Below are positions 40,898 through 63,061 of a DNA stretch of 64,000 nt, one piece after another. The DNA comes from Margaritispora aquatica. Taxonomy: Eukaryota > Ascomycota > Leotiomycetes > Helotiales > Discinellaceae. The stretch covers positions 498,411 through 562,410 of the forward strand of contig VJWN01000008.1 in assembly GCA_007644065.1 (NCBI GenBank), in the 5' to 3' direction. The notes under the pieces are model-generated. The model did not search any database. It had not been told where the DNA came from and worked only from the letters and a program-made list of their open reading frames with translations. A program made the translations under genes and the position numbers. Positions within the stretch are counted from its first letter, which is position 1. Each line of letters begins with the position of its first letter.

Positions 40898-41756
40898 TTA
40901 CAAGATTCCAGATGTGTTCAGGTATCGATGCTTTTCTGCAAAGTCATAGATCAGCTGGTAATCTCGGCATTGATGTGTTACATTCCATCCATCCACTGAT
41001 TCAACATCTAGCACTGTCACTTCGATGGCTGGTTCCAAGGACATGTCTCCAGCACACATGGCGCCTTGCAACAGGTAATCGAAACAATGAGCGTAATGGT
41101 CCATTGAGTGACTGCTTTTAGTACTGTTATCTGACATTGATTCAAATGCTGCTTTCAAACTAGCCTGGGTCTATTAGTTCTGGAGTGTCAAGAGAGTCTA
41201 GCCAAACATACGATACAGTGCATCTGATGGAACATAGATATTGCATAGTACCCTCTTTCTGAGCTGTAAGTACCATCTTGAAGTTGAGTACCAGCTGGGA
41301 TGTGAACGAATCCTCTACCTTCTGTGAAGCATTTAGCAATGTATATGCTTGCTCAGTAAGAGATTATACTTACTGGGAAGCAATTCTCGCCAAGGGTCAT
41401 CGACAGACTGAGAGCTCCCTACGATTTCGTATTGCTCCGCTGGTGCGAATACCACTTTCTGGTCATGTGGTACTATCAAGTTAGCGATGCTCTTTCAAGA
41501 CATCGAATCTCGAGAGTTGCTTACTCTGTGTCCGTGCTAGCGATAAATCGTTTGCTTTGTAGTGATGGGAGGTATTCTTTGTCGTCCATGCTGCAAATAC
41601 AAGTCCGAGGGTAACGATGTATAGAATTGACAATCCCCAGAAAGCCGTTCGGTACTTGCGGTGATCCCGCTTAGAAACTGTAACAAACTGCCTTCCATCA
41701 AGCGAGTCTGAAGAATCGCCATCGTTAAGCTGTTGATACTTGATCGTAGAGTTCAT
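40898..41756 (-). CDS. UstYa-family (DUF3328) protein 1, putative RiPP-modifying oxidase
   Basis: Four exons (41525-41756, 41374-41472, 41212-41321, 40898-41164) give 235 aa. A cytosolic start (MNSTIKYQQLNDGDSS) is followed by one membrane helix at about residues 38-58 and a lumenal catalytic region. Two HxxHC motifs, the family hallmark, are intact: HQMHC at 142-146 and HYAHC at 170-174. UstYa proteins of the ustiloxin, phomopsin and asperipin pathways carry out oxidative cyclisation of ribosomal peptides in the secretory pathway; that role here is inferred from family and context. It shares strand and intron layout with the second UstYa gene, and the nearest other gene is a repeat precursor. 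UstYa proteins also occur outside RiPP clusters, so the substrate is not proven. The frame start at 41771 is TTG; ATG 41756 is preferred. Confidence 0.9.
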
Positions 41757-42843
41757 GATGCTCGAAATCAACTTTCAAATCTAGAGAAAGAGCAATAGCA
41801 GTCGCAGTAGCAGTAGCAGTAGCAAGAGGAAGATGAGCTGAGCTGAGATGAAATCAGAGGAAGTGCATCGGCTCCTTCGGATCCTTGAGAAAACCGCAGC
41901 TGTAGCTATGAATCTCAGAAACGAGCTGGTATTCGAATTGAGTGCGTGAGGAGGGATGATCGTGGTCCGATGTCGCGAGGAGAGCCGAGTCAACTCGTCG
42001 TCTCAGGTCGTCTGATCCGGAATCTTGGCTAAACTCTGTCGGTTTTGAACACACCTGCATGTTCTGTGGTTGGACTACGGGATGCTGCAGACGGTTTTCA
42101 GCTGCTTGAAGAGCATCGGTCGGGCTCGGATTGGATGAATGTCTCGCTGTGTCAGGAAAGCATATCTATGTGCGTGGAGGGTTGGTTATTCTCTCCCTTT
42201 TCATGGGGTTTTAAGCGAATCTAAGATCTCACCGACGCCTCAAGGCAGCGTACTTGCTCGACAATGTGACAGTGACTTCATCTCGTGAACAATAGATTCG
42301 CGAATGCACTTCTTAGGCTGTTGTGTCTCGTACTCACCGTCGCAATATCAACTGGTGCTTGTGGTGGATTTGCAAATACGAATTCTTCTTCCGCATGTGG
42401 TTGAGAGTGGACGGTCTCTTTTCATCACTGCAGCTTGACCGTTAGATCTTGTGTTGCGGATGACATCTAGAAGAGCCGTTACGTGCTACTGTGGCGTATG
42501 GCTCCCACGCAGTAGCAGTTGGCCATTGCTCGTGTGATGCTTCCGTGTGTTTAGTTGTGTAGGTGTTATCCAGTGATTCCAACACTGGGAGGATACTGGG
42601 GACGGCTGTAACTCCCGGCCTGTGTGATCTGTCAATACTGAAGCACAGCATCCAACTAAAGTCACTAGTATCTGTCATGTTACTCTAAGAGGACAAACAT
42701 TTCTTGAAAGCCTCACCGCTTGGGCTTCACATAACGCCAGTGCACATTCAGCAACTTTCAAGAGCAGAAGGCGAGCATGAGAATGGCTTTCATTATGTCA
42801 AGTATTTCTGGCATCATATAGCCAGTCTCGTACAACATTCACA
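41757..42843. other. intergenic between the two UstYa genes
   Basis: This is the promoter side of UstYa gene 1. It holds a triplet run at 41796-41824 and several short frames without recognisable content. No tyrosinase, methyltransferase or transporter gene is hidden here as far as I can see. Confidence 0.55.
41796..41824. repeat. imperfect AGC/GTA triplet microsatellite
   Basis: Alternating GCAGTA-type hexamer units, about four copies, lie just upstream of UstYa gene 1. Confidence 0.7.
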
Positions 42844-43850
42844 CTAGCTATCCTCTGCTGCGCCAATACGATCCCCCTTCCCATCTGGAAATGATGGACC
42901 TGAGTTCATCAGCAAACCAATCTCAAGTGACAATCACAAACTCACCTAATTCAGGATGCACAAGAACTCCAGCTGCAAAAACATCCACCGTTCGCTCCTT
43001 AGACCATTCATTCAAGCTGTCCCAATTGACACATTCATGGGGACTTGTGAAATTGGCAAGTGGGATAGCTTGGTTCTTGCCCCAGCGCATCGTGACAATT
43101 GAAGTGTCGCCTTGACATTGAATGCCTTGTCGAAGGATATCAAGGCAATGCATGCTGTGTTGACGATTGTGACGTCTTTCCACCTCGGTCATATCTGGGA
43201 AGTAGTGATCTTCATAGAAATAATGATGCAATCGTTTCTAAGCATGTCAGTGTGGAAGTCGAATATCGAAATGATGATCTCACTATGCAATGAAGTTGAT
43301 GGTAGACCATTAATGAACCAAAATATCCGCCGCCAGGGAGTGCAATTCCCTCATCAAGACGACCAGCTCTTCTCAGCTCCTCCTCCGGAATCCTTATGTT
43401 TGTATCTTTAAGTAGAATTAGCTAAAGAAGATAAACTGTTATTCTGAACATACATTGCAAGAGCTCATGCCAAGCATCATCCAATTCGGGCCTCGGCTCT
43501 CCAACATATGGACTCTCCAACTGAATTGGGACATCGAATACCTGAGATTCTTGAATCACTGGTATTCCTCCTGCGTCTGTTTCGATCAGCGTTGTCTTCT
43601 TCCACTTGTTGGGCATCATACCTGTTTTATGAGCAGTCAGCCTCCGCTGCTGTATCGCAGCAAGGAATATAATCGTATACACTCCAATCACAATCACATG
43701 TGCAATGAACGGAATCCAGGACCTCAATGGTGAATGTCTCGAATTAATGGTCGGTTGATTTGAGAGGAGAGACTCTCCCGATAGTGAGTCCTCATCAGGC
43801 TCGCGCCGATTAGGGGATTTCTTGGACGTGAAGGGTAAATATCGATCCAT
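42844..43850 (-). CDS. UstYa-family (DUF3328) protein 2, putative RiPP-modifying oxidase
   Basis: Four exons (43454-43850, 43284-43405, 42946-43237, 42844-42899) give 288 aa. A charged N-terminus (MDRYLPFTSKKSPNRREPDE) leads to one membrane helix at about 45-66 and the DUF3328 domain. Both HxxHC motifs are intact: HQLHC at 168-172 and HSMHC at 200-204. The C-terminal exon of 56 nt adds PSFPDGKGDRIGAAEDS. It is clearly diverged from UstYa protein 1, so the two may act on different residues or as a heteromer; that is inference. It is divergent from the repeat-precursor gene across 568 bp, which suggests co-regulation. An annotation relying on single frames would miss the last exon. Confidence 0.9.
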
Positions 43851-44418
43851 GGCAACCAAGTATAGAAGATTCCAAGATTTGGTTGCAATTCAAGATGATT
43901 GATGAGATGGATGTGGGCATCGAGAGATACTGGAAGTTTGTTTGCTCCTCCAAGCCCTTCCCGAACCTAAAAATCTGTGCGCATGATCCCGACGCTCAAG
44001 CATCTTGGTACGACATCGCGGCGGTGCTCAACAGCCTTGCGACACGAACTCATCGTGCCACGACATGAGATCGGATGGATTCGCGCTTTCGAGCTCATTT
44101 CTGATAGGCAAGAGTTTGAAAGGATCATTTAGCTTTGAAATGGCCGAAAGCGGAAAGTAGGTGGCTTCATGTCATCGGTCGGCCACAGTTGTCATTTTTC
44201 GTGAAGAAGAGCTTCACCGCTTCATGATAGAGCATAGGCAAGCCGGTGGAGATGGGAGTCGATTGAGAAAGGTCTGAAAGTGCAGAGGATGCGTGACTTG
44301 AATGATGCTTGGGTGAGATGATAAATAGGACTCGAAATGAGCCGAGCTCTGAATCTTGAGAACATCAAATCCTAGAAGTGCATTTTTGAAATATCAATTC
44401 GATCCCCAAAAGCCCAGC
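43851..44418. promoter_or_regulatory. divergent promoter region, UstYa gene 2 / RiPP precursor
   Basis: These 568 bp separate two divergent start codons, so both promoters lie here. I could not identify a specific transcription-factor site. A short frame at 43883-44068 has no protein character. Confidence 0.6.
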
Positions 44419-45722
44419 ATGAGGGTCACTCAACTACTTGCGTTCAGTCCATTGTTGGCATTGGTTCTCAGTAACCCTATTCCATCCGAAGGCAAGTATG
44501 ATCTCTCAGTACTTTGAACTGCAGGAGTTAACTTTATCCTTAGCAAAGGTAGATGCAGATCAAGGATATTCAACAGGTCTCAAATTTACTGACGTACCTG
44601 GGGAGGATGTACAGGCTCAAGATATCGTTGAGAAGCGAGATGTAGCCGGTGCAGGTATGTCATTTTTCCCTACTTCACAACTCATTGTGTCTTTGGTACA
44701 TTCTGACTTCTTGAAGAATACGTTGAGGCAGACCAAGGCTATGAATTCATTGTCAAATTTACGGACAAGCCCAAGGAGACTCAAACAGAGAGTGTCAATA
44801 AGCGCGAGATTGCTGGTGTTGGTATGTTTGTTGTATTTGAGCCATGCTTGATACTTTTGCATTTGCATACTGGTTCCTGACTTTAACAGAGCAGGTCGAC
44901 GCCGACCAAGGTTATGAGTTCATCGTTCGATTCACGGATAAACCAAAGGAAGCCGAGAAGGAGACCCAAAAAGAAGCCGAGACTCTACAAGGGCGTGGTG
45001 TTGGTAAGTGTGACATTGATTCCATTTACTATTCGCTCCCAGCATCATGACCTAATTTTTGTTTATTGACTTTCAACAGAAAAAGCCGACGCCGATCAAG
45101 GATACGAGTTTATTGTCAGGTTTACAGACAAGCCAGCGGAGACTGAACCTGCGGGGAAGCGAGATCTAGCCAATGTTGGTAAGTGGATCTTGTATGGTTC
45201 TTTGGCCAGAGTTGAACTTTAACATGGTCCAGAGAAGGTCGATGCTGATCAGGGATATGAGTTTATTGTCCGATTCACAGACAAGGACAAGAAGGCCACA
45301 GAGACTGTGCAGAGACGTGACCTCCCAAGTGTCGGTAGGTGTTGCACATTCTCACCCACTTAGCGTGGTATTGACCTTTCATGTCACTCAGAGCAAGTCG
45401 ATGCCGATCAAGGATACGAGTTCATCGTCAGATTCACAGACGTACCTGAAGAGAAGCCCAATAAGCGTGATGTGGCAGGTATTCCATTGAGTGAGTTGTC
45501 TTATGCCCTTTCATTAGCCGATCTATCTTGTTTCCCTCAAGGAGGCTCTCGAGGAAGTTAAACTAACAAAGACCAGCTGCCTACAAGTTGACTATCTCGT
45601 TCGGAGAAAATGGACTCCCCATCATCTCTACCGACCAGAAGCGCGCTGTGGAGTCTGATGGCTCGTATGAAAGCGGCATTTGGGTTCCTTTCACAAGCTC
45701 TGATAAGTATCTGAGTGATTGA
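44419..45722 (+). CDS. secreted repeat precursor peptide, putative dikaritin-type RiPP precursor
   Basis: Eight exons: 44419-44491, 44544-44654, 44717-44821, 44890-45003, 45080-45178, 45233-45334, 45392-45490, 45577-45722; 282 aa. All seven introns are phase 1; the first has a GC donor (GCAAGT). A signal peptide (MRVTQLLAFSPLLALVLS) is followed by six repeats beginning at about residues 25, 62, 97, 135, 168 and 202. Each contains DADQGYEFIVRFTD or a close variant; repeat 1 is diverged (DQGYSTGLKFTD). Five repeats end in a dibasic site: KR in repeats 1, 2, 4 and 6, RR in repeat 5. Repeat 3 has GR. A last KR lies in the C-terminal segment. The protein has no cysteine. This layout, beside two UstYa genes, is that of Kex2-processed dikaritin precursors. 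Alternative: an unrelated Kex2-processed secreted repeat protein. Confidence 0.85.
44544..45490 (+). repeat. six exon-encoded peptide repeats of the precursor
   Basis: Exons 2 to 7 each encode one repeat of 33-38 residues, and every one of these exons is flanked by phase-1 introns. The coding part centred on GYEFIVRFTD is strongly conserved while the linkers before the dibasic site vary in length and sequence. The intron sequences between them do not look similar by eye. Confidence 0.9.
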
Positions 45723-46864
45723 TCTGGAGAATAGCTTTCTGGGAAGAAGTGGTCAGCTCGCTTGAGATGCAGAGGTTGAGGTTCCTATTTCTATGGCTTA
45801 GCTGATGAATTGTTACCTGCCTTTTCTTCATTTACGCTTAGATAGAAGCAAGATTAAGTTCGAGATGATGTTGTGACGTTTTCCATGAGCGGATTTTGCT
45901 GATGTGCACTTGTGTGGGAGGGGTTTGATACGCGCCTCAGGTGTTTATGGCAATGAATGAACTTTGAACTTGCTTACAAATCTATCTCCCATTGCTATAA
46001 TGACCCCCAACACACGTCCAATGAATCTTTCGACGAAGTTCCAAGTCCAGGATAACCATTCGAAATAGTGTAAAACGAGAGTTTCCAGGAAACAGCGTCC
46101 ATCGTTCCTCTCCTGCACTAGTAGTGCATCTTTTTAAGGAGAATCACTTAGTATAAGAAGAAACAAGAAGCAAGAAGAAAGCGTATCCCAAACTATGCAA
46201 CTCTCTTACATCTTATAAGCTGAAGTGGAGATTTTAAAGTTCGTGTGAACCTACCACAGTTGTAGGTTCTCAGCGAGCATTGCCATCCTGATACATGCAT
46301 TCTCACTGAAGTTTTCGCAGTTCCTTCTATATCCGCCCTTTAACCCTAGCATATGACGAGAATCTATGCTAATTCCCCCTAACACCACCACGTCCCAGTC
46401 TCCCCACACTTCAACATCTGCAATCAAATCAGCCAGACCATAACAGCGGCAGGATCATCCCCCATTATCGATCTCTGCCATCTCAGTCATCACAGATGTC
46501 TTTGGAGTACATAAAGACTTATCAGTGAATATATGCTGGGTGTGACGAGGGCCCAGAGGAGGAGCCCACTCAATCATCCCATGGGGAACCGTGATTCTTT
46601 ATCTTTGTATTCTTATGTGTCTTGGTGGGCATGAAGATCGGGGTATTGGTATATGAATGCCTGGTACAAAGACGTCGTGGTTGTGGTCGAGTTATCGTGC
46701 ACTGTGTGACGAGTGGCGAAAGCGAGAAAGTCGGGGCTGACTCTGAGCTTGAAGATTGGTGTGTGGAGTTGGGATTGGGGCACATTTTGAATATCTTCGT
46801 TCTTTGGGGAGCTCTGGAGACGATGTTTAAGGGGAGAGATGTGGGGAGTATACGGCTCAATGTT

Positions 46865-46882
46865 GGGGGGGGGGGGGGGGGG
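46865..46882 (+). repeat. poly-G tract, 18 bases
   Basis: An uninterrupted run of 18 G. Such tracts are prone to sequencing error and G-quadruplex formation, so the exact length is uncertain. Confidence 0.85.
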
Positions 46883-48285
46883 TAAATGAGGTGATGTTAA
46901 ACGAATCTAGTCTGCTGTACTAGGAAACTACAAGACGACGCCGTTTGTATAGCGGAGGGCTATCATGGTGACTTAAGATAGCTAGTAGTCATGAAAATGT
47001 TCGAAAATGGCAGTGCAGAGCTTGCTTGTCTGGGTATTGCGAAGTGTAGGTAAATTGAGACATAGTTGGATTCGTAAGATCGACCTCTCGTTTTAAAGAA
47101 CACCAGTAGCTTGCAGGGAAAGTATCAAAGCCCATCAGTGATTGACGAAAACATCGCAAGTCTGCGCCATCTGATCCGCTTTCCACAATGAAGTGTTCAA
47201 CATTTGACGTCTAAATCAAGTGAGCGATTGATCTTGTAGTATTTGCCTTCGTCAGATGTAGTATTCTAAGACATGTCATTGGAAACATTGGATGTAAAGC
47301 AATGCCGTGTTTTCACATCCGATCTAGCCCCTAATTCATAAAGTCGTGAGATCCTGGTGCTAGCATCAAAGTTCGTGAGAATGGAAGACAGTATCATATG
47401 ATATATCACATGGCTCTGTCCAGCAAGCGAGCCACTCAGCGCTCGTAGCATTTCCTAGCCGCCGCTAGAACAAAACCCCTGCTCCTGCCCATGTTCCGTC
47501 TCCTTCCCTCTTAATTCTACCCCGCGGCCATGGTCGCCATCTCGACCTGGTGCTACTGCTGGTTAACGAAGGAGAATCTCTACCTCGATAGATAACTGCA
47601 AAGACTCCGCGAGACTCGATGGCCGATCATGATAACAGCTGAGGAGATAGTTGTGTGGGGTGTTCAGTTTTTGAGGTGAGCTTAGCTGCTGATACATCAA
47701 GTTTCGGCGCTCAAGCTGCTATTGCATGCGGCAACAGTCAACGGTGAATCTTCCTTCTGTATATGATACAATCGATTACAATGCATATAACACTAGATAA
47801 GTTTGCTTTGAGAACTGTCAGGAGGAGACACACCCTGACCCTTGGAAAAGCGTATGGTACACCACGCAATGCCAGGGTACAAACTCACCCTTTCGGAGCA
47901 GAAGACCAACACGGCATTCACATCGGCTCTCTGGTAAATTCAATAGGGAGAGAGAGACATTCGGGCCTTGAGCGTGGACTGTACCAGACAAACCTGATGC
48001 CGAACCGAGCCAGGTCACTTCCGACCTCCACGAGTTTTCTGTGTCCCCTTTTATGCTTTCAATAAATGCAGCTGAGCTTTGGTTAGAAATAGAGCTATTT
48101 AGATTCCATTGACTTTAATAATTAGAGGGCCGAGATGTGAGCTGTTAATCTGGATACATGATATTTCGTTCCTTGTGCCTTATGGTGTTTTTAAGAGTGT
48201 CTCATTCAGCTCAATCGCTTTGGAATATGAAATGGATATCTGTATCCACCGTCCCGACAAATGCCCTACACGCGTCAACGATATC

Positions 48286-48309
48286 CCAACAACAACAACA
48301 ACAACAACG
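48286..48309. repeat. AAC trinucleotide microsatellite
   Basis: About seven perfect AAC units in a gene-free region. Confidence 0.85.
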
Positions 48310-48956
48310 CTCAAGCACATGCATCATATGCGGGATTTTGTGTTGGTTTTGTCGCTTGGGTTCAGCGGCGCTCGAATTGCAAGTTCTCCCAAGCCTGCTT
48401 GCTCCTGAACGTGATTGGCGCACAGACGATGTGATTGACGCGTAAAGCGTTCAAACATCCTCGTCATTGGACCATATTCTTCAAAAATTTCACTTGTGTT
48501 GGTGATGGTCTCTTGCATGCAGCCAAGCGCGCTTCTAACAATTCTTCGTGGTTGCTACTGGCTCGCTTGACAGATGTTAGTGTTAGTCGTATCTCTCCCC
48601 TATTTGCTTGACGAGCACAGCCCTGTAGAACGGTGAATGGCAGATTGATAGTCTTCTACAGGGATTAAAAAGTCTCTGGGACGAGAGTCAATAGAAGAAC
48701 TTTAATGTGACAGTTCCGACAATTCGGTTTACTCGTGCGTAAGTAGTTTTGGGAAATTCTCACACCACCACCTACCTCGTATATGTTGTGAGAGTCGTCC
48801 TGGTGTGAGACATACACTTTATCCACATCATCTACAGCATCTTGCTTCAACGCCTCTGTCAATGCTAGCACAGGCTTAATTTCAACCTTTATTTTATGCT
48901 TGCACCGCTTCAAGTAGCTATTTTTAAGTGACGGATTCACAGCCAACGCTTTCATC

Positions 48957-50636
48957 ATGGCTTCATATCTTCTCACCTTGCTTGCTTTGACTTCTCTCCT
49001 TCCTACGGCCTGGTCATTGCAAGTCACACCGAACTCTCGATGTGCATCTGTCTGTATGAATCACTTGGGAACAGACCCCGACCCCTCCAACCCAAATGCT
49101 AGCAACACTCTGGGAACAGAGGTCGTGTGTCGAGACAGCGACTACAGCAACACAATGGCGGGATTGAGGTATCGAGATTGTGTCACTTGCTTGCAGACGA
49201 GCGACGCGAAATCTGGAGGAGAGAGTGACCAAGCATGGTTCCTTTGTGAGTACCATAACACTCTGCGAGTCGATTGCAATTGCTAACACGTCAGCGAAAG
49301 ACAATATTCGATATACTGTCAACAAATGCCTCTTCAAAACCCTCAACACTTCCAACCAGATTGATACCGCTTGCTCCCTGGAATCTGCGTGTAGTCCTCT
49401 CAAACCTGCCCTAGAAATTGGCATGCAAACACCATCCTTGGCCAACGAGTTCGCATATTGCACTGCAAATGAAAGTGGCATCACCTTCACAAGTCCATAT
49501 CTTGCCAGCTGCAAGAAGTGCCTCCAAAAGAATACAGACATGTATTATCTTTCGAACTGTATGTCATCTTCACACATTCACCCTTGAAGCTACAATACTG
49601 ACCAGCTCAAGTTCTTGTGGCCTTAGAAACTGGATGTAATCAACGGCCAGAAAGTGATGCGTTGATAGGTCTTAACGGTACTCTTTTCAGTCATCGTCCA
49701 ATGGAAATCATAGATCCAGTATCCAATATCGACACGACCAAGCAAACCTCACGTCAAAACCTTACTCAAGCAGCGATAGTGGGAATTTCAATTGGCGTTG
49801 CTGCCTTAATTATCATCTCAGGAGCATTTACATTCGTGTGTGTGCAAAAGCAGCGAAACTCAAAGCGACTCCTGGGACTGCGCAGTGGACTTAATCCTCG
49901 ATTTGGAGCCACAAGAATATCTGCACCCATTCAAGGAGCCTACATTTCTCCTGAGAACTCACCACCACTTCGTGAGACACACAATGCCTTGGCTCCTTTT
50001 TCTCAAGTTGAGAAAGAAGCTATCGAGATGCACCAGCCGCCATCCATGCGGAACTTCAGCAAACGAAACTATGGACTGTACCAGAATACAAGATTGGATC
50101 AAGCCACGCGAGGGGCAAAGACAGCAGAGAGCTACTCGCCAGGTCCACTGTCATTCTCACCAAACGAGGGTCGGGGTTTCATCCCCTTCTCATTTCCAGT
50201 CTCGCGCAACCACGAGCCTGTAAACCCACTTGCGTCCAATCCACCAGAACCATGCTACACATCAGAGCCATTCCGTGGGCGTGGAGCTCGCTCTGGCAGA
50301 TACATACCATCGATGTTCTCATACATCTCGATGCTACCTTCTCATACGCGGCAGCCCTCAGCGTCGAAGCCAGAAAATGTCCCTGAGGTCAAGGTACCTA
50401 AGCGAGAGGCATCACCTGGATTGCAGATTTCAGCACCGATGATGTGGGTTGGAACGCAGTTTGAGAATGATGGGGACTCACGAAGGACGAAAGACAGGCA
50501 GCAGAAAGAAGGTGTGTCGGCAACAACTATACGTAGAAATGTCTTTGGAGGAGGTGTGAAAAGCCCAACCGAGAGAGTTAGCCCGATGAGTGCGAGTACG
50601 GCCGTGAGCGAAGAAATGTGGCCAGGGAGTTTCTAA
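48957..50636 (+). CDS. Cys-rich type I membrane protein, subfamily A, copy 1 (LPXTG-domain-like)
   Basis: Three exons (48957-49245, 49301-49558, 49612-50636) give 523 aa. Signal peptide (MASYLLTLLALTSLLPTAWS), then a Cys-rich ectodomain opening LQVTPNSRCASVCMNH with CVTCLQ and CKKCLQ-type CxxC pairs. One transmembrane helix (about 236-258, AAIVGISIGVAALIII) precedes a disordered Pro/Ser-rich cytoplasmic tail ending SEEMWPGSF. Fungal homologues are often labelled 'LPXTG-domain-containing', but no sortase-type anchoring is expected in fungi. The function is unknown; a surface receptor or adhesion role is only a guess. Its exon layout (junctions in the YNIRY block and after YYLSN) is shared by all five paralogues in this cluster. 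It has no convergent subfamily B partner. Confidence 0.87.
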
Positions 50637-51834
50637 GGAGGTATATTTATTAATTATGACGATAGAGACAGATCGAATGCTTGCTTCTTCATCAAATGTC
50701 CCAGAATTGTTGAAAGTACATCTTACATCTATTTTTGCATCACGTGTGAATATCATGTTCTTGCCTCTGCTTGATCCTTTAAAGTTATGCTGCGTTCCAA
50801 TTTAACCAGCATCGATACGCATGGTTGTAAGACTAGATCATATCAGGATGACTAATGTACTTTTACCAAGCTCGAAGCGCCTATGCTTAGTTGAAGCCAA
50901 CACACAAATTATGAACTTGTCATCGAAAAACAATGAACAATAACAAAACCCAAAAATGGTTCATGATGCTATCATTGTTCCTTCGGGTACGATCGTACTG
51001 GCTGCTCTTATCAATCAATGCATTAATTAGTTCTGCGTATTGTGCCAGGGCTGTCACGGGATGCTGGGGTAACTACATCTGCCTGAATCTAACTTCTCCC
51101 AAAATGATCATTGGCTTTGCTGAATATCGGTGTGAGTATCTTCTCATGCAAGAAGCTTCCGCCACCAACCCCAATCTCCTCTGATGAGGAAGTACTTCCG
51201 TGGTCTTTGCAATTACTGGGACAGTTGAAGCTGGCGCTAAACATCTGATTTTACGGGCTCGCTTAAGCCCCTGTGAGCAGACACGCCACTACCAGGGCTC
51301 GCCATTAGCCCTCCTCCAATAAACAAGAAACAAACATGCGCACAAGCGCCATTTCATATTCGTCTCTGCAGCTACTGGTCGGAAGCACGGGACATCGACA
51401 CACGACTTCTGGCTATCCAGACTGTCGGGTCAAGTTATCTATTTTGATGGAGCTGTGGAGAGGAACAATGAAGTTATTGGCCGGAATAGACTTGAACCGT
51501 CAATGTGGAAGCAAGGGCTTCAATGACCTGCATGTTTTCTGATGCGTTTGTTGGCCAAGATTGAGAGAGCTGATGGTGTGTAGTACAAACACATGTAGAC
51601 TGATTTTCATCAGTGTGGGGTGTATATGTGTGCATTGTACCCGAAGATTGCTTTCTTTCTCCTTCTCCTTTGTGTTTTTCATCATTTAAGATCTGAAATC
51701 TCCTTAATCGAACATCCAGCCTGTTTCGATATCTGATCTGATACGTTTGTTTTACTACTTAAGGTTTTTCGGCGACCGGCATGAGGACAATTTCCCCAGA
51801 CCATAGCAAGCGACCATAATCCATCGAGGCCAAG
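50637..51834. other. intergenic
   Basis: Between subfamily A copies 1 and 2. Frames of up to about 83 codons (50933-51184) are unremarkable. No remnant of a subfamily B copy is apparent by eye. Confidence 0.55.
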
Positions 51835-53574
51835 ATGATCTCACCATCCATAGCCCTTCTCATTTTAGGGCAGCTCTTGAAACCAGTAGTGGGGCTGCAG
51901 GTCACGCCCAATTCTGCTTGCTCGAAGCTATGTATCAACGACCCTACTACAGACACCTCGAATTCAAATTCGTCCAGCATCAATGGCACCGATACAGTCT
52001 GTTCTGACAATGCATATATGAATACAGTGGCAGGCCAGAAATTCCAGAACTGTGTCAATTGTCTCCAAAATAGCACCGCTGTTACAGCGACTGAGAGTGA
52101 TCAGGAGTGGTTTCTTTGTAGGTGTCACTACTTGCCAGTTATCACGAATTATACTGACTCAGTAGATAATATTCGTTTTGCCTTCAGTACATGCTTATAT
52201 GGCTCGAAAGCCTCTTCGGAAACCTTTACAAGTCAATGTTCTAGCAGCACTACCTGTGGTCCGCTGGCTTCAGCATTACAGGCGGGCATGCTTGAGCCTT
52301 CACTCGCTAATCAATTCTCATATTGCGGCAACAACAACGAGACGTTTGGCAGCATCGACTTCAGGAACTGTGCTTCCTGTTTGAAACAGAGTTCAGAGCA
52401 ACACTATCTAGCAAACAGTATGAATCTAAACTCCTTTTACCCCTCACCGGCTTGCTCACACTTATGTATAGTTCTCACAACACTGGACGCTGGTTGCGTT
52501 CAAAGACCCTCACCGGGAGTTCCACTTCACCTTGATGGCAGTGTCTTCTCCTCCTCATACATCAACATGACCTTTCTATCCACCGCCACCACGACCACCA
52601 CCAAGAACAAAGGCCTCACTATGGGAGGAGTCATCGGCATTGCCATTGGAGGTGTCGTTCTCTTCTTCGCATTTCTCGCTTTGATATTATTCTGCTGTCG
52701 CAAGCGAATGCGTCAACGCGATGTACGTCTTGAATCGAGCCTGGACCAGCGGTATGGAAACAAAGATATCAGCAATCCAGTCTACGGAGGCTTTGCAGCG
52801 TACAGCGAAGCTAGTCCGGATACACCAACCACGAAGGAAAACATAGCCTTGATCAGAACGCCGCCGCCGGTCAAGAAGTCAGTGCTACACAGCAGATACA
52901 GCCCACCGGACTATGAGGAACGTTACTCACGACGCGATCCTTCACCGTCGTCGCAAAACTCACTTGGGAAGACGCACGAGGAGATTGCGAGAGATCTTGG
53001 CTTCAGCATGGGTGTTCCGGACCCAAGGGTCCCACGAGTTGAGACAAAAGTGGTTCCCATGCTTTACCAGCCCGAAGCCTCAGAACAAAAGCCTTATGAA
53101 GTTTCTCCCATGTCTACGCATGAAAACTCACCAGAATTCGTACGCCCAACCGCCACAACAATCGCAAATCAATCACCATCGGCCTCCAACACAGCACGAT
53201 CGCCAGTCACAGTGTTAGGCAGCTCGAATCTTCCTCCCTCCTCCGGACCCGGGCTCCCAAGTCTCCCCAAACGAAGCCCAAGCTTTTCAGGTCACAGCAA
53301 CGCTTCGAAGGCACCCTATCAAGGCTCAAGTCGGCGACACAAACGTGATTTGAGCGTCAGCCGGGGAGAAGCAGGTGCGTTGTCCACGGTTGGGCGAGCC
53401 ATGAAGCCAGGTCAGATTTCAGGTCCGATTGTGAATGTTAGGACAAGGTATGAAGATGAAGACGAGGATGCAAAGAGGAGGCGGGAGAGAAACTTTCGTG
53501 ATGGGTTTGCGAAGCGGAACGAGGACGCGACTAGGAAAACGGGTAATTATGAGAGTGATGCGGACTTATGGTGA
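51835..53574 (+). CDS. Cys-rich type I membrane protein, subfamily A, copy 2
   Basis: Three exons (51835-52117, 52166-52417, 52472-53574) give 545 aa. Signal peptide MISPSIALLILGQLLKP, ectodomain opening LQVTPNSACSKLCINDP, with FQNCVNCLQNST and CASCLKQ CxxC pairs, then LDAGCVQRPSPG. The transmembrane helix is at about 230-253 (GVIGIAIGGVVLFFAFLALI), followed by a basic CCRKRM stop-transfer. The tail is long, Pro/Ser-rich and ends in a charged segment (RTRYEDEDEDAKRRRERNF). Unlike copies 1 and 3 it lacks the terminal EEMWPG motif. It is the left member of the first convergent A/B pair. The ectodomain should be extracellular; ligand unknown. Confidence 0.87.
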   Translation: MISPSIALLILGQLLKPVVGLQVTPNSACSKLCINDPTTDTSNSNSSSINGTDTVCSDNAYMNTVAGQKFQNCVNCLQNSTAVTATESDQEWFLCRCHYLPVITNYTDSVDNIRFAFSTCLYGSKASSETFTSQCSSSTTCGPLASALQAGMLEPSLANQFSYCGNNNETFGSIDFRNCASCLKQSSEQHYLANSMNLNSFYPSPACSHLCIVLTTLDAGCVQRPSPGVPLHLDGSVFSSSYINMTFLSTATTTTTKNKGLTMGGVIGIAIGGVVLFFAFLALILFCCRKRMRQRDVRLESSLDQRYGNKDISNPVYGGFAAYSEASPDTPTTKENIALIRTPPPVKKSVLHSRYSPPDYEERYSRRDPSPSSQNSLGKTHEEIARDLGFSMGVPDPRVPRVETKVVPMLYQPEASEQKPYEVSPMSTHENSPEFVRPTATTIANQSPSASNTARSPVTVLGSSNLPPSSGPGLPSLPKRSPSFSGHSNASKAPYQGSSRRHKRDLSVSRGEAGALSTVGRAMKPGQISGPIVNVRTRYEDEDEDAKRRRERNFRDGFAKRNEDATRKTGNYESDADLW

Positions 53575-54454
53575 AGTGACGGAACATCAGGTGGGGAACT
53601 GGCTTTCACTACAAGCTGTTGGGGTTATGGACACTTTGGTATCCATTGGAGTATTATTAGGCGCAAAAGAGTGGCAAAGGAGTTTGAATGGGGATAAGGA
53701 GTTGGAGTTTTTATCTAATACCTAAATGGAGTACACAATCTCAAGTCTTATGATGTTGATTGAAATGGAAACCGCTTTACCATGGACAGGAGCATGGAAT
53801 CACCAAGTGATCATTGCCCTACAATCTTAACGTTTCTTGAAGAAACCCGACTTGTCGAGTTTTTCGTTGCTGGTTCAGGTAGTCCCACTCAGAATTAATT
53901 CTGAGAGCAAATACCCGAGTTACTATCTCCTATTTACCCTCCAGATTAATGCTACTTCGGACATCACATTCACCTGTTCAAACACTATATCACAAACATC
54001 CCATAGGTTGATCAATTGTGATCAGCTGATTTCTTATCATAGTAGGATCTCAAATCTCACATAGCATTCTGACACCGAGGTATGATTTTGCAGTCATGTT
54101 CTTCAAGCAACGCTGCAAATCAAGAAAAGAGGTGCTCTTATAATAATGCAAACAAATCAAGATTTAGATTCTACCTATCTACTTAAGAGAAATCTAAATA
54201 GACCAAGTAGATTCCTTTTGAGAAGGCTAACACGTTTGTACAAATGAGGCAAACAGAGTGCATTACAACCTCCAGTAGTGTATACAACAGGGAAAGGGAA
54301 ACCCCAACTCCAAGACAGGAAAGCTCCCACCAGCCCAACACCCGCTGAAACGAATGTCCACCGACTCCAAGTCCCTACACAGCATCTATAGAGTGGCTGA
54401 ATTACAAATGAAATTTATTCTTAGTCTTCGAGTCTTTGAAACGTTCAACAACTC
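53575..54454. other. spacer inside convergent pair 1
   Basis: This 880-bp spacer is between the 3' ends of subfamily A copy 2 and subfamily B copy 1. The equivalent spacer in pair 2 is 484 bp. No gene seen. Confidence 0.6.
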
Positions 54455-55741
54455 TCAGGCCGGTCTCCCAGGCCCAGGATGGTGCAGGACTGGAGTTGAG
54501 TCTTGCTTCCATGTCTCCCACGGACTTTTCAAAACGACCTTGGTCATCTGTATCCCCGGACCTGGCGGCGCAGGCCCCAACGACCGATCAACGGCCGGCC
54601 ATGCACCACCAACGTGACCCAGTCCATCACGAGCGCTGACTGGACTGTTGTAATTGCTGTTATACGGACTAAAGAAACTCTTGTCTGTCGTCGCACTCTG
54701 AGGCGAGCCTCGATTCCACGACAAAGTCCGGTTCAGAGGTCGTTGACTCTGAGGACTATCGAAGAAGTGCTGCTCTCGGGGCGACACGGCACTCCCGAGG
54801 TATGGAGAGCCGGGAGGACCAGCGCGGAGATTTTGCTGCCATACAGCGTATCCGCTTGCACGCTGATGGGCCGTGATGGCTGCGAGACGCTTCTTCCTGC
54901 CTCTGATGATGATGCAGGAACCTAGAGCTATGAGGATGACTACCACGCCGCCTACTGCGATGCCGATCTTGGCTCCTAGGTCGAGGCCTGAGGTTTTGGG
55001 TACGTAGGGGGCAATTGGCGTTGCTGATGTCGATGAAGCCGAGGTGATGTTCACTCTGGTGGGGGAGAACACTGTGCCTTCTATGGAAATGAGGTTTCCT
55101 TGCACGGGCTGCTGTTTGCACGCAGCGTCGAGTACAGTGACCACTTGAGTGAGGAATTAGCTTGTGAATTCGAGGATTCCATTGAACAACGTACTATTTG
55201 ACAAGTAGAACTCGCTGCCTGTTTCTCTCAAGCACTCAGTACAGCTCTTGACTGAAGCCTGACTGGCTGTGAACAGTGGACAGAACGAGTAAGTGCTCGC
55301 ATTGGGATTAAGCGAAGAGAATTCCACAGCACTTTGCAAAGGTGCACAAGAGAAACTATGAATCGTCAGCCATGTAATCACCAAGAGGGGTAAGTTTGCT
55401 TACCTTGTCAAGCAAGGCGTGTTGGCCACTTTTGTATTATTCTCGTACCCAAAAAGGCACCAGGACAAAGCATAACGAAGGTTGTAAATCGCCCAGCGAA
55501 GATCAGCCTGCTTCGTCGCTGTGTCATAATACGGACTTGCCAGCTCGCAAGCGATGCAAGCTTTGAAAGTAGTCCCGAATGCCGAAGAGTATTCGCCATC
55601 ATGGCAGGTCATTTCCGAGCCAGTTGTGGCAGAAAGTGTGTTACCGCACAGAGCAGCACATTGAGGAGAGGAGGGCACAACGAGGAGGGACTGTGCGATT
55701 GTCGACAGTAGGAGCAGGAGCGGTAGAGATTTTGACCACAT
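54455..55741 (-). CDS. Cys-rich type I membrane protein, subfamily B, copy 1
   Basis: Three exons (55404-55741, 55195-55355, 54455-55143) give 395 aa. Signal peptide (MWSKSLPLLLLLSTIAQS), then LLVVPSSPQCAALCGNTL, CIACEL and the block NLRYALSWCLFGYENNTK. Exon 2 carries CTECLRETGSEFYLSN. The transmembrane helix is at about 224-246 (GIAVGGVVVILIALGSCIII) with an RGRKKR stop-transfer. The tail contains FFDSPQSQRPLNR and SFFSPYNSNYNSPVSA and ends PVLHHPGPGRPA. The ectodomain is shorter than in subfamily A but uses the same exon junctions, so the two subfamilies are homologous. Compared with copy 2 it stops about 15 residues earlier at the C-terminus. Function unknown. Confidence 0.87.
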
Positions 55742-58700
55742 CTTGAGAATTAAGTCGGCGTTGTCCAGCAATGCCAATTGTAGTTGTCCTGTCTGTTCTG
55801 GTGTCCCTAACCTCTGTTGCCTGGAATGTTGTTGTGCCGAGTTACATGTGGACTGGAAAAATGTCCTTGCACAGAAAGCAAACGAGCTTATTGTGGAGAT
55901 GCGTGCAATGATGCGAACTGGTTTTAAGAAGGGACAACAGGACAAGTGAGGAGTATATAGATGTCCCCCAAGCTGCACGCCACCATGTTGACTATCAGAA
56001 TCTCATGCATGCATACCTCCCCTCCAAGAGCGATTTAACCGAACCTGGTGAGAATATGGGCACACATCACAACATTGGTACCCGTGTTGGACCATCGACA
56101 TGTCCTCATGCAGGAATATGTGCTTTTCTGGCAATATTCCGTGATAGTGTTGGTTTTGAGGTTGCTCGACCTTTGCGATTGGTCTGCAGTGTGGAGCAGG
56201 GGTAAAAATTGAGCGTAGTCCGGCCTCCTGAGTGGCCCATTCAAGTGATATCACAGGGAGTGGTCTGTGCACAGGGGTTAAGCGAGTAAGCGAGTCTTTC
56301 AGGCTGTGGTGGCTGTATGGATCTAGCCGTCAAGGGCTGTGGGGTTCTGAAAGCAGGTTCCCCTTGCCATGCACAGTAGCAAAGATACAGATCCAACGTC
56401 CATTTTGGGATATATCGAGTCTAATATGAGTGCCGTCACTGGCTTTGGTGTGAGACATCGATTGATTGCATCGGCAGTCACTCTGCTATACCTTTTCGTC
56501 TGGAGGTTTGCTTCCTAATTTAGATTCTTTGCTCCCTATGAAATTCGTTGCCAAAACATCTTGGATAACTACCTCGGTTTGTGTTGTCGGCATAGTTTGC
56601 TCTACTATGTTAATATTGTGCTTGATACTGGTGAGTGTATCAGTCGTCATGTTTGATTGGAATATTTTATACGAATTCGAAGGTAACAACGGTCAGTCCG
56701 CATGCATAAGAAGCGTTAAACCACCAAATGAACGAGCATGTCTTCTCGTGACAGCACAACGCGCATTTGCAGTCACGTTGCCTTTAAGCGCGCCCATGCA
56801 TATCGACATCCTTTTCCTTCCAACAGTGACCACCATCAGCAGTGACAAGCACATCCTACTGGTTACCGACAGCTGCATCTCGCCAACAGAGGTCACACGG
56901 GAAAACTCTTGCGCGGATGTGTTAACACACACTGCTGGATAATCGAGTCACTGTGCTTTCAGTCCTCAGGGATATAGATCTGTTAAGCACAAGGTGCAGA
57001 GGGCGTTGAGATCCCGATTCACCGCCATCACCACCTTCATCGAACGCTCTCATCCGAACACCACAAATGCTCTTAGCGCTGACACCTCAGCCTTATCACA
57101 CTATCATCTCAACTGCCTTATCACCTTACTTCTGTTTCGACTCCCTATATGTCACACACGATGTTCCCTTCTGTATTGGCTACCACGTTTTGTGATGCTT
57201 CGAAGAGAGACTCAATCACTGTGATGAGAAGTTGGCTGTAGCAACTACCGCTGTCATTTGTGCTTGTCATCATCGCTGCACAGCTTCAAGGAAAGCACAT
57301 TTCGTATCAGAGTTATGCTTTGCTTTCGAACTTTGCTATCGTCTTTCATGCATCAGAAGTAACAAGTCAATTCCTCGAGTATGCCCCCCTGAGTTTGGAT
57401 AGAGGTCCTCAGTTGCAGTCCCGAAGACCAGCTTTCCGTTATAGAGTAGGTAACACAGCCGAGACAAGAGTTGACTTATCGATGGAGATTTTGCTTTAGC
57501 GTAAACGCAGAGCTTGACATCTTCATGCCTACTATACGAATTGATTTCCAGCTGTTCTTAGGCAGAGCAGGAGATGATTGATACTCGAACCATGGATACC
57601 ATTGCATCAAATTGGTGATATTTATGAAAGAAATTAGGCGATTGTGTTGAAGATAATTTGAGAATATGGTTGTTCGCTGAATCCATTCGCAATGCTGATA
57701 CCTATGCTCAGAACACAGAAAGCATGACTAGATATTTGACACAAGGAGCTTGACAGACGGTTCAGATAACAATATTTGTTACCGAGTAAAAATATCGTGA
57801 CCGGATTGGAAACCGGTCACGATATGCGACAGGGTGGCTCTGCTTGAGACTCAGACCTCGTCCTTGTCTTAATCGTCGTGAGGATGACGATGCCTGAAAC
57901 AAAGAGTTATCAGACAACCAACAATCAGATGAGGTGCACGAGAAACACCCGAGCTGTCGTAAAAGCTCCTCGTATCCGTGCTGCAGCAGAGGCAGAAACC
58001 GGCCAGCAGCGGCCCTGGAGAGGACGAGAAGAGGACAAGGAGATCATCGGCCTTGTTTATGTATGTCCTACTTAGTACCAACGACAGTGATCATCGTTCT
58101 CGTCTCAAATGTAACGAATTAAACACAGAGCGCCGAAACAACATAAGAGTCTTCTTCAATGGAAGTATTCAACGTTATCTCTTACGTAGATCAGACCGTG
58201 GATCTCAAACAGAGACTATCAGCATACCTACTACAGACCGGAGATCGTTTCTGTGATTTGCCAACAGCAACACCACCATAAGTGAAGATTCGCATCACGC
58301 TTCGAACACAGCGTATAACGAGCATTACAGCGTGAAACCATCCAGTCTTCTGCACCAGCAGAGCCGAGTCCAGTCGAGTCGAGCTGACCTGAACTGAGAA
58401 CAAGCGCTCGGGAGCTTCCATCACTTGCATATGATGCCCTCAAGTGGAAATTGATTCAACAAGAGCCTCGATGGGTCTCGGTGCTTCGTGATCTATGGTC
58501 TGAGTCCACGAATATGTATGGAGCATCTGCAGCCACCATCACAATTGCCGCACCCGCGGTTAAAGGATGTTTGTGATGACAAGCTTAGACGCGATTTCCT
58601 TGGCATCTGGTCTTTCTTCCTAGGTCGTGGAAAGTTCTATACCAATGGGGCAAAATCAACAATCAACAAGTTTGATCCCTACTCTCACAACAACGCGTTG

Positions 58701-59432
58701 AAGGTCGTCAGCAAAGCTTGCACTTGTACCCCTCGCGTGTTGGTCGGGAAGAAGTCAGCATATTAATTCATGCATGATCTGGACGTTTATCCAAGGATGC
58801 CGCAGCGAAGCGCTTACCACGCCCCCCTATTGGACTCGCTTAGCCAGTTTCCCCTGCCACTGGCTGATCCATACGGATGATGGCTGGCGGCCACCAGCAT
58901 GCGACCAAGCGCGCTTTAACCGGGCCAGTGTTCCTCTTAGCAGCTTGCCATTGGCTTATTGGGAGCGATTTCCAACATCGCGAGCAACGGTTTCTCTGAT
59001 TCGGGCTCGTGAGTGGTGGAGCGAGACGTCGAGAAGCACGGATGAGGGAGGAGGTAGGGAAGTTAGGTAACTAAGTGGATTTGCGGAGAAAAAAATTGAG
59101 CCCTGCGAGGTTGGTGAGGTGTGGATGCTTGTGAGTTGTTGGAAGAGGTAGACATGTACGGAGTAGCTCACCCCAGCTGTCCGGGTGCGTATATGTTGTG
59201 AGGGCTGCCCGGTAGGTACGCATCTCGCTCTCACCTGCGTCTTTTGTTCTTAATTTGAACTCTTGAGTGAGAACTTTGTTGGTTGGTGGCTGCTGTCTCT
59301 GCAAGATATCCAGCTGCTGCTCATGCTCAGTCTCGCTAGGCTGCGAAGGTTGGAAGAGTGCGGTGCAGAGAGACTTGGTAGAAGGCATTGTCGATCACGA
59401 CCCCTAATTGCATCAAACGACTCGGAAGCTTC
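55742..59432. other. gene-free stretch of 3.7 kb between the two A/B pairs
   Basis: No supportable gene. The longest frame (56466-56942, 158 codons) starts with TTG; an internal ATG would give a hydrophobic segment, but no signal, domain or splice context supports it. The stretch lies upstream of both subfamily B copy 1 (-) and subfamily A copy 3 (+), so it should hold two divergent promoters. It could hide decayed copies. Confidence 0.5.
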
Positions 59433-61270
59433 ATGATGGCGAGCTTTATTCTGACTTGTTTGCTTGCCTTGTATGTCTCGACACCGGCATGGGCATTGCA
59501 AGTTACGCCAAATTCGAAATGCGCTTCATTGTGTATGGACTACCCGGGAGCTGATCCTTCGGACCCCAATGTTAGCAATACCTTTGGATCAGATGTTGTC
59601 TGTAAAGATGATGACTACAGCGCAACGTCAGTTGGCGTGAAATACCAAAGCTGTATAAATTGTCTCCAAAACAGTACTACCACAAGTGCAACCGAGTCAG
59701 ACCAGTCTTGGTTTTTATGTAAGTTGGCAGAATTCTTCATGCAGAGCTTCACTAAGCATTTCAATAGACAACCTCCGATATACTCTTAACACTTGTCTGT
59801 TCAACCCCGCCAACGCATCAGACCGAGTTGACACACCTTGCGCTTTAAGCTCGGTTTGCAGTCCACTCAGATCCGCTTTCATCGACGGTGTATCATCGAC
59901 CTCGATTTCGACAGAGTTCGCATACTGTACCGCCAATGGAGCAGTATTCACTAGCCAGTACCTCTCGATTTGTCAAGGATGTCTACAGCAGACCACGAAT
60001 GGTGTCTACCTGTCAAACTGTGAGCATTTCTCCATCCATGTTTCATTTATGATACTGACATTGGATGTGCACAGTCCTTATCGCTCTGAATGCAGGATGC
60101 AAACAGCAACCAGCAAACGGGACCTTGCTCGGTCTAAACAGCACACTCTTCACCCACAACCAGGTGCAAATCATAGACCCCATCACCGCCGCAATAGCAG
60201 CCGCACAAGGACCCCACAAAGTCCTCACTCATGGCGCCATAGCAGGGATAGCAGTCGGTACAGTTGGGTTTCTGCTCCTCCTCGCCGCCATCATCTTCGT
60301 CTGCATCAGGAAACGCCGCAACGAGAAATACCTCAAGCAACTCCGCAGTCCACTAGACCCCCGCTTCGGAGCCGAGAACATCACCGCCCCCAACAGCGGC
60401 GGCTTCACCTCGATGAACTCCCCACCCATCCAGAAGTACCCGTACAAGTCTGAAGAGAGCGCGGCCCAGACACCCAAGGAGACAGTGAAGATGATGCGCG
60501 CGCCGAAGATGCGGAACTTCAGCCTGCGCAACTTCAGCTTGGGTCGACACTCCGAGACCCAGAACGCGAGTTGGGAGGAGATGCAGCCCGAGCCAACGCC
60601 CTCGAGTACCCACGGGCACTCGCCGGGCCCACCGATGTACTCGCCTCCGCACGCGAACAGACGTGAGTCCTTCCCCACACACCAAGCGTACATTCCACCT
60701 CAATACGCACCTTCTACTCGGAGCTCAGTATACAACCCGCCCGTTGAGCCCGAGCCGTTATTCTCGAACCCGGCACCGCAAGCCGTGCCGGCAGCACACC
60801 CGCAACGCTTCACGCCCTCGCCGGCGTTCTCATCCCCACACGACGAGAGACCTGTGCCCTCCCCTCCCATCATGGCACGCGGGGGCCTGGGTCGAAGTCC
60901 CACCTTTACCAGTCCTGGCCCTGTGCCCGTAAGTCGGAGCAGTAGCCGCGCCAGCATTGTGCCTTTACAGCCAGCACGGAGTCACACGCCGAGCATGTCA
61001 TACCAGATCCCACCACCTCCTCCACGACCGCAGCAGCAGATAGACACCCGAGGGGACGAGACGTCTGACGGACACGAGATGCGAATCTCCGGACCGATCA
61101 TCAGAGTCGGAACACGATTCGAGAGCGATGAGGACGCGAAGAAGGCGCGAGAGAGACTCTACAGAGAGGGGATTACTGGTATGGGGATAAAGCAGCAGGA
61201 ACGGCTGAGTCCGATTAGAGGAAGCCCTGCGAGTGCCATGAGCGAGGAGATGTGGCCTGGAACTTTCTGA
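59433..61270 (+). CDS. Cys-rich type I membrane protein, subfamily A, copy 3
   Basis: Three exons (59433-59718, 59768-60019, 60075-61270) give 577 aa. Signal peptide MMASFILTCLLALYVSTPAWA, then LQVTPNSKCASLCMDYPG, YQSCINCLQNST and CQGCLQQ, then LNAGCKQQPANG. The transmembrane helix is at about 234-257 (GAIAGIAVGTVGFLLLLAAI). The tail holds a DPRFGAENITAP block and a MRNFS-type block shared with copy 1, long Pro/Ser-rich sequence, and the shared end SEEMWPGTF. The conserved tail end in copies 1 and 3 suggests a functional cytoplasmic motif. The frame from 59388 opens at TTG; the ATG at 59433 or 59436 is the start. Left member of convergent pair 2. Confidence 0.88.
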
Positions 61271-61754
61271 TTCTTTAGTGGCCACCTTTATGATGTGTGC
61301 ATTTTCATGTTTATTTTTCCTTTCGATCATGTTTGTGGAGGATAGTAGTGAGCGGGATGGAGTTCGGCGTTTGAGGTAGGGCTTCCTACACTCTTTTTGG
61401 AAGTCTTGTCTCCATTGGGTAAATACCACGATTGCTTGTGTGGAAATAGATAGTACAAGTCCAAACAATGACTAAGAAATGACCGAAAAGATTGATTGCA
61501 CTAGATATAAACACAAGTATGTGGTGATTTTACCAGGCATAGGACCAGTGGTCCATGGCAATCACAGATATTGCCATCCTAAATGGAGGGTATACGAAAC
61601 GCCGAGCCTCCAAGAGCGTGAGCTTGAGAAAAGCATTCTTGAACCAGCCAACCGAAGCGCCATGCTAACCACCAACCAAAGAACCAAAAACAAGCACACT
61701 AAGCAATAACCATTACCATCCGCAAACCAAGCAAGAACCACAATGAGCATGCAA
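61271..61754. other. spacer inside convergent pair 2
   Basis: This 484-bp spacer is between the 3' ends of subfamily A copy 3 and subfamily B copy 2. No gene seen. Confidence 0.6.
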
Positions 61755-63061
61755 TTAAACAGCATGTCCCATTTTAATATCGTAGTCCGGATAGTTTGGC
61801 ACTACACGGCCAGGACCTGGATGTGACAAGACGGGAGCTGTGTTTTCTCGCCACGTTTTACTATCTGATGTATCTACTCTCTCCATCTCGATCTCCTCTC
61901 CACGATCTTCGTGAAATCCAAAGCTCTGGAAAGCCATTTTGTTGTCCCTAGGCCACTCGTGAGGTCGACTTGGTCCTTCCACTGCACTAACTGGGCTAGT
62001 AAATTGGCTCGAGTAAGGACTAAAGTATGCCTTCTCCACAACAGCACTAGCAGGTGAATTATCTTCGTTACCCCATGCATTCGCAAACGGCCTTTGACTT
62101 TGCGGACTGTCAAAGAAGGGAGCTTCGCGCTGTTGAGGCGTGCTCACAGCAGCATTGTGATGGGTTTGCCACTCGTAGCCATTAGCTCTTGCTTTCTCGG
62201 CCAGAACTCGCCGGCGACGACGTTTGCCGCAAGATACGATAATGAAACCCGACACCATCAGTGCAAAAACAAGCCCTCCTGCGGCAATGCCAAGCTTGTC
62301 CCCAATTGATAGACCTCCAGCGCTAGGCGTGTATGAAGAGATCGGTGTGGCAGAGGGTGTGGTGATGTTTACTCGGGTGGAGGAGAAGACTGAGCCTTGA
62401 AGCGAAAGAGTCCCGCCAGCTACTGGTTGTTGCTCACAAGCGGCTTGAAGAACAGTGACAACTGGCATTTCTGGTCAGCAAAAAGATCTTATGTCTGTCT
62501 TAGACAAACTTACAGTTCATGAGATAGCGCTCATCGCTCATTTCTGCCAAACATGTTGTACATTTTGGGACAGTCACACTAGGGAGAAGTGGACAAAAGG
62601 AGTATGAGGATGCATTTGGGGACAGAGAGCTGTACTCGAAGCCACTCTGTAATGTTCCGCAAGAAAAACTATCAACACATTCGAATCAATACATGCCGGG
62701 TATCCGAATCAAGTGGTATTTACCTCGTCAAGCAAGGAGTGCTCACAGCTCGTGTATTGTTCTCCCAGCCGAACAAACACCAGGATAGAGCGTATCGCAG
62801 ATTGTATATTCCCCAGTGCAAATCCGGTACCTTCGTTTGTGGATCGAAGTATGTACTACTCAACTGGCAAGATATGCATGCCTTGAAGGCTGGGCCATAT
62901 GTCGATGTAGCATAACCGGAATCAGCGCAAGTGATTTCAGCACCGCTGGTACTGTCCAAAGTATTTCCACAGAGTTGAGCGCATGGTGATGTCGGGACCA
63001 CAAGCAGAGCTTGTGCGACCGCGATCAGGGCGAAGACGATCGATATCGTGTAGGTAAACAT
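61755..63061 (-). CDS. Cys-rich type I membrane protein, subfamily B, copy 2
   Basis: Three exons (62724-63061, 62514-62668, 61755-62461) give 399 aa. The first exon has exactly the same length (338 nt) as in subfamily B copy 1. Signal peptide (MFTYTISIVFALIAVAQA), then LLVVPTSPCAQLCGNTL, CISCQL, NLRYALSWCLFGWENNTR and CTTCLAEMSDERYLMN. The transmembrane helix is at about 221-242. The tail shares FFDSPQSQRPF, YFSPYSSQFTSPVSA and PVLSHPGPGR with copy 1, then extends to MGHAV. The acceptor of the second intron must be the later CCAG at 62462; the earlier CAG would create an immediate stop. The ATG at 63061 is used (the frame opens upstream with TTG). Function unknown. Confidence 0.87.

Follow-up and report, generated by a model that had tools for sequence, protein, structure and literature searches.

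A probable dikaritin-type RiPP locus with a one-repeat-per-exon precursor in Margaritispora aquatica

As far as its sequence allows us to judge, a compact set of three genes in Margaritispora aquatica is probably responsible for a new secreted peptide with crosslinks, of the known ustiloxin/asperipin kind. The window, that is the whole stretch of 64,000 nucleotides analysed here, is part of a 1.86-Mb contig in a 42.4-Mb assembly and is fungal in its introns and gene content, and the set lies at 40898..45722, with a repeat-containing precursor on the forward strand and two UstYa/DUF3328 genes, UstYa-1 and UstYa-2, on the reverse strand (Table 1). The RiPPs known as dikaritins derive from KEX2-processed repeat proteins (KEPs), and UstYa homologues carry out their cyclisation (PMC10512285). 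We give a probability of roughly 0.7 to the reading that this is a dikaritin-type locus, in which Kex2 would cut the precursor and the UstYa pair would oxidise or crosslink its Tyr- and Phe-bearing core. The initial annotation had proposed such a locus over the same span, with a UstYa pair adjoining a Cys-free, dibasic-site repeat precursor. The gene models and Pfam bear out this arrangement, and the span is bounded by two stop codons, at 40898 for the distal UstYa gene and at 45722 for the precursor. The proposed class stands in that the anatomy fits, and is weakened in that UstYa genes also serve non-RiPP pathways and several KEPs yield linear peptides.

Table 1. Positions of the genes, exons and intergenic stretch of the locus within the window.
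Feature	Position	Strand	Basis or remark
Precursor gene, 282 aa, 8 exons	44419..45722	+	hand-placed splice model
Precursor exons	44419-44491, 44544-44654, 44717-44821, 44890-45003, 45080-45178, 45233-45334, 45392-45490, 45577-45722	+	
Exon 1, signal-peptide-like N terminus MRVTQLLAFSPLLALVLSNPIPSE	44419..44491	+	translation
Repeat exon 1, KVDADQGYSTGLKFTDV..EKR	44544..44654	+	translation
Repeat exon 2, YVEADQGYEFIVKFTDK..NKR	44717..44821	+	translation
Repeat exon 3, QVDADQGYEFIVRFTDK..LQGR, end without dibasic site	44890..45003	+	translation
Repeat exon 4, KADADQGYEFIVRFTDK..GKR	45080..45178	+	translation
Repeat exon 5, KVDADQGYEFIVRFTDK..QRR	45233..45334	+	translation
Repeat exon 6, QVDADQGYEFIVRFTDV..NKR	45392..45490	+	translation
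Exon 8, diverged tail AYKLTISFGE..QKR + AVESDGSYESGIWVPFTSSDKYLSD, possible degenerate units 7 and 8	45577..45722	+	translation
Intergenic stretch, likely shared promoter	43851..44418	.	568 bp, precursor and UstYa-1 divergent, from gene models
UstYa-1 (nearer), 288 aa	42844..43850	-	hand-placed model; Pfam PF11807 E 3.5e-50
UstYa-1 exons	43850-43454, 43405-43284, 43237-42946, 42899-42844	-	hand-placed
UstYa-2 (distal), 235 aa	40898..41756	-	splice-variant enumeration; Pfam PF11807 E 1e-23
UstYa-2 exons	41756-41525, 41472-41374, 41321-41212, 41164-40898	-	inner exon borders uncertain

The exons of the precursor were placed from the sequence alone by phase, splice sites, branch points and stops. 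All seven introns are in phase 1, and each of the symmetric exons 2–7 carries one clear repeat. Intron 1 is of the GC-AG type and the other six are GT-AG, with the donors GTAAGT, GTATGT, GTAGGT and GTGAGT. A branch-point-like [CT]T[AG]AC is present in every intron, against a mean of 0.8 out of seven in shuffled introns, with none of 2000 shuffles reaching seven; read-through meets a stop in six introns, and the seventh shifts the frame if retained. The one-repeat-per-exon layout probably goes back to a symmetric phase 1-1 exon that was duplicated. Pairs of introns agree in 0.80 of the aligned columns compared with 0.73 for shuffled introns, and intron homology is not claimed because part of this likeness is splice consensus.

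The encoded protein contains no cysteine in its 282 residues, as had been stated, and its N terminus has a hydrophobic stretch of 11 residues with a mean Kyte-Doolittle value of 2.47, hydrophobicity being the only criterion applied. All eight matches of the precursor to its own genome (E ≤10) lie at this locus. Its Pfam matches, to eight families at E ≤10, were discounted, since a strand-like motif that recurs is likely to produce them by chance. The match to a nuclear-pore Ig-like domain is over the cut-off (4e-9, in three stretches) and was set aside since its best stretch covers just 30 of 120 profile positions; the other seven families are under their cut-offs, the best being the Csp protease prodomain at 4.7e-4.

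The motif GYEFIVRFTD, originally put forward as the conserved repeat, is exact in four of the six clear repeats, namely units 3–6, which share the core DADQGYEFIVRFTD. The description is too strict for the other two: unit 2 (EADQGYEFIVKFTD) has K for R, and unit 1 (DADQGYSTGLKFTD) reads GYSTGLKFTD. The similarity of unit 1 to the other five units was reached by none of 2000 shuffles. In the diverged tail, unit 8 is supported as a relative of the repeats (9 of 2000 shuffles as good), whereas unit 7 shows no significant likeness to them (390 of 2000). A Y-x5-F pattern, that is a Tyr and a Phe able to take a side-chain crosslink, is kept in all six clear units.

How strongly the core is conserved can be read from its codons. 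Over the 14 core codons of five copies (units 2–6), pS is 0.96 and pN is 0.027, giving a pN/pS of 0.03, which rises over 17 codons to 0.09 for five copies and to 0.17 for all six; these ratios are a guide only, because the block was picked as conserved-looking, the copy pairs are non-independent and the synonymous sites are near saturation. Synonymous codons differ at all 14 core positions in units 2–6, and the core Arg is encoded by CGA, AGG and AGA in different copies. Since Arg is kept through three codons while every position varies synonymously, the peptide itself is under selection. The repeats are old, with synonymous sites near saturation, the core is almost unchanged, and there has been no recent homogenisation.

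Both UstYa proteins match PF11807 over nearly the whole profile, UstYa-1 at positions 4–220 and UstYa-2 at positions 11–220 of 220. Automatic splice enumeration gave no model for UstYa-1; that of UstYa-2 is the longest of 13 variants that keep both HxxHC motifs, 10 of which were listed. Two intact motifs per protein had been claimed and are confirmed in these models, as HQLHC and HSMHC in UstYa-1 and as HQMHC and HYAHC in UstYa-2. Each protein has a membrane-anchor-like hydrophobic segment near its N terminus, starting at residue 48 in UstYa-1 and at residue 38 in UstYa-2. Their identity of 31%, over 102 aligned residues, shows that they are no recent duplicate pair. A search for relatives of solved structure found none at E ≤1 for UstYa-1 or one paralogue.

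With six clear, similar repeats and six KR/RR sites the precursor has the repeat-and-site make-up of a KEP, and the features of a dikaritin (ust-RiPS) locus are present as clustered UstYa/DUF3328 genes, intact HxxHC motifs and a crosslinkable core residue. The core of asperipin-2a is FYYTGY, whereas here YEFIVRF lies within a longer conserved block; the core of victorin differs from YEFIVRF too. Asperipin-2a of Aspergillus flavus is otherwise similar in having a KEP precursor and UstYa-type neighbours, and is described with Tyr crosslinks (PMC7329392, PMC9233826) and with five DUF3328 genes rather than the two found here (PMC7329392). Ustiloxins and phomopsins likewise combine repeats between Kex2 sites with UstYa genes, and their Tyr is crosslinked; however, their cores are YAIG, YVIG or YVIP and a tyrosinase is required (PMC7329392), while no tyrosinase match lies near the present locus. 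As the core YEFIVRF also lacks the Y-x-I feature of the ustiloxin/phomopsin subgroup, that subgroup is excluded. Victorin and the epichloecyclins share multi-core precursors with this locus, the epichloecyclins with a different core, and their crosslinks are reported to use Phe in victorin and an internal Tyr in epichloecyclin (PMC9233826). KEPs at large have the same precursor architecture (PMC7329392, PMC6339444). UstYa neighbours, as here, accompany 22% of the 7878 KEPs of Umemura 2020, where Tyr occurs in 65.6% of the repeats of UstYa-neighboured KEPs and in 38.2% of the rest (PMC7329392).

Several observations count against the dikaritin-type assignment. The conserved block of ~14 residues is longer than YAIG/YVIP (PMC7329392) and than the nonapeptide epichloecyclins (PMC9233826), and unit 3 ends without a dibasic site. 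The sole tyrosinase match of the contig is ~0.83 Mb away, and no S41 peptidase match was found on the whole contig; both families were searched exon by exon with only the best candidates scored, a procedure by which genes may be missed.

If the locus is nevertheless dikaritin-type, the precursor would, judging from its N terminus, enter the secretory pathway, where Kex2 would cut after the observed KR/RR sites in the Golgi and a carboxypeptidase would trim the basic residues, leaving peptides of ~28–33 residues around DADQGYEFIVRFTD. Unit 3 ends in QGR, which is not dibasic, and units 3 and 4 may therefore stay joined. The membrane-anchored-like UstYa pair would then oxidise the peptide through its HxxHC centres. 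By analogy with the class, the crosslink would most likely involve the Tyr, the Phe or both that are conserved in YEFIVRF, and would be expected at Tyr1, Phe3 or Phe7. The linear [M+H]+ values computed for YEFIVRF, YEFIVRFTD and DADQGYEFIVRFTD are 973.5142, 1189.5888 and 1675.7598, and a single crosslink would reduce each of them by 2.0157. The flanks VDADQG and TD probably serve as a recognition sequence or are trimmed later, and the final product would be secreted.

Could the precursor instead yield linear peptides, cut by Kex2 and secreted unmodified as a signal, surface or fibril-forming peptide, with the UstYa neighbours acting elsewhere? Several KEP-derived peptides are indeed linear (PMC9769878), the 15 nearest genes include no UstYa gene for 78% of KEPs (PMC7329392), and the alternating character of YEFIVRF might allow a beta strand. 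We consider this unlikely, although it deserves to be kept in mind, for two UstYa genes directly adjoin the precursor. UstYa matches occur at 17 places in the genome, which we grouped into ~12 genes at 10 loci; with so few in 42.4 Mb, the chance of a UstYa neighbour is, by a rough estimate, ~1 in 1000.

The dibasic sites bear on a further question, whether the precursor is processed at all. It might be an unprocessed secreted repeat protein, an effector or a wall protein, in which KR/RR sites are incidental; fungi do have repeat-containing secreted proteins (PMC5412055), and the missing dibasic site of unit 3 fits such a protein. Yet the Kex2-type sites, which had been recognised from the outset, are above chance: six KR/RR follow residue 25, compared with a mean of 1.55 in shuffles of that part, of which 3 of 5000 reach six. 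They end five of the six clear units, and the sixth follows unit 7. An unprocessed repeat protein is a highly improbable explanation. P_proprotein, a domain of Kex2-type proteases, has a match in the genome, in two pieces at one place on contig C12, as expected for Kex2.

To the left of the three genes, a TruB/CBF5-like gene (Pfam TruB_N, TruB_C_2 and PUA) and a SAC3-like gene are the neighbours, and to the right of the precursor no Pfam match was found in six frames over 45700–50500. Non-RiPP pathways, polyketide and non-ribosomal, employ UstYa proteins as well (PMC12048977), and the pair could accordingly modify a small molecule or non-ribosomal peptide from elsewhere beside a bystander precursor, but with such neighbours, and with no synthase recognised beside the UstYa genes in a Pfam scan covering 20 of the 36 open frames that reach 150 aa in the window, this has only a very slight probability. 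Over the Pfam cut-off in these 20 frames were SAC3, TruB/PUA, GPHR/ABA_GPCR, LTV and PAF67, together with a short-chain dehydrogenase, GTPase domains (two frames), an acyl-CoA dehydrogenase and DUF7137. The short-chain dehydrogenase, at 22.3–23.1 kb, is ~18 kb off UstYa-2 with housekeeping-type genes in between.

The precursor and UstYa-1 likely share the 568-bp stretch between them as a promoter. No convincing motif common to this stretch and the one upstream of UstYa-2 was found; an 11-base string occurs in both, near chance by a rough estimate, and a few CGG/CCG pairs are present. Farther right, six long frames at 49602–62474 (49602+, 51820+, 54458-, 55403-, 60059+ and 61758-) have no Pfam match, and five of them carry a motif [AG]-C-x-Q-[QR]-P ... 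[TS]-[VL]-F before a transmembrane-like stretch. This is the picture expected if related membrane proteins are encoded there side by side.

Is the core new? It had been called unfamiliar, and YEFIVRF, GYEFIV, EFIVRFTD and DADQGY are absent from the main texts of 5.39 million papers; the core can be called new within those texts. One survey counts 838 KEP types and 1758 KEPs with UstYa neighbours, whose repeats are highly diverse (PMC7329392), and with such diversity a new core is to be expected in a newly read fungus. By 2022 only five dikaritins were on record (PMC10512285), and nine dikaritin clusters are described from Venturia inaequalis alone (PMC9632046). With just three genes close together and a new core, the present locus offers a tractable test of what a UstYa pair does without a neighbouring tyrosinase.

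The least ordinary feature of the locus is the exon-per-core layout. No mention of one exon per repeat in KEP, dikaritin or repeat-effector genes was found in the titles, abstract openings and text passages searched, though it may be reported elsewhere, and the words "intron" and "exon" each occur zero times in the main texts of two KEP surveys (PMC7329392, PMC6339444). Because the cores sit in symmetric exons, exon skipping would keep the frame. A bolder and distinctly doubtful idea is that of a modular precursor, with one symmetric exon per crosslinked core, in which splicing would govern how many cores are made and in what mixture, and in which a conserved crosslinked peptide of at least 14 residues, beyond the known dikaritin cores, would have been kept long-term by selection and not by repeat homogenisation. 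The combination of exon-per-core structure with old, strongly constrained repeats makes a clean case for studying the evolution of multi-core precursors and the effect of splicing on their output.

The other UstYa loci of the genome permit a comparison. We scanned for 9-residue words in at least three copies in 18 stretches flanking the nine other UstYa loci and in the first 60 kb of the window, its last 4 kb being left out; short cores would escape such a scan. Within the window's six 10-kb blocks the scan was positive, on both strands, at the precursor only, and among the 18 stretches it was positive in three, on contigs C35, C5 and C48. At ~49.6–50.5 kb of C35, nine HTEKQIAAKK units, repeats of the HHTEKQIAAKKAKAA type, stand beside UstYa matches at 44.2–47.6 kb. 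This precursor resembles the present one in its secretion-like N terminus and its repeats near UstYa matches, but differs in that eight of the nine repeats lie in one open frame and the units are nearly identical. Even this one genome, therefore, does not follow an exon-per-repeat rule throughout. At ~621.4–622.3 kb of C5, a Gly/Leu-rich protein with eight LTGLLARE-type units in a 433-aa frame and a single KR/RR site has a UstYa match ~2 kb away, at 619.3 kb. On C48, at ~481.9 kb, three PDGEVQINWG-containing repeats, 78 bases apart within an open frame in which no signal was seen, are separated by ~4 kb from the UstYa match that is strongest in the genome.
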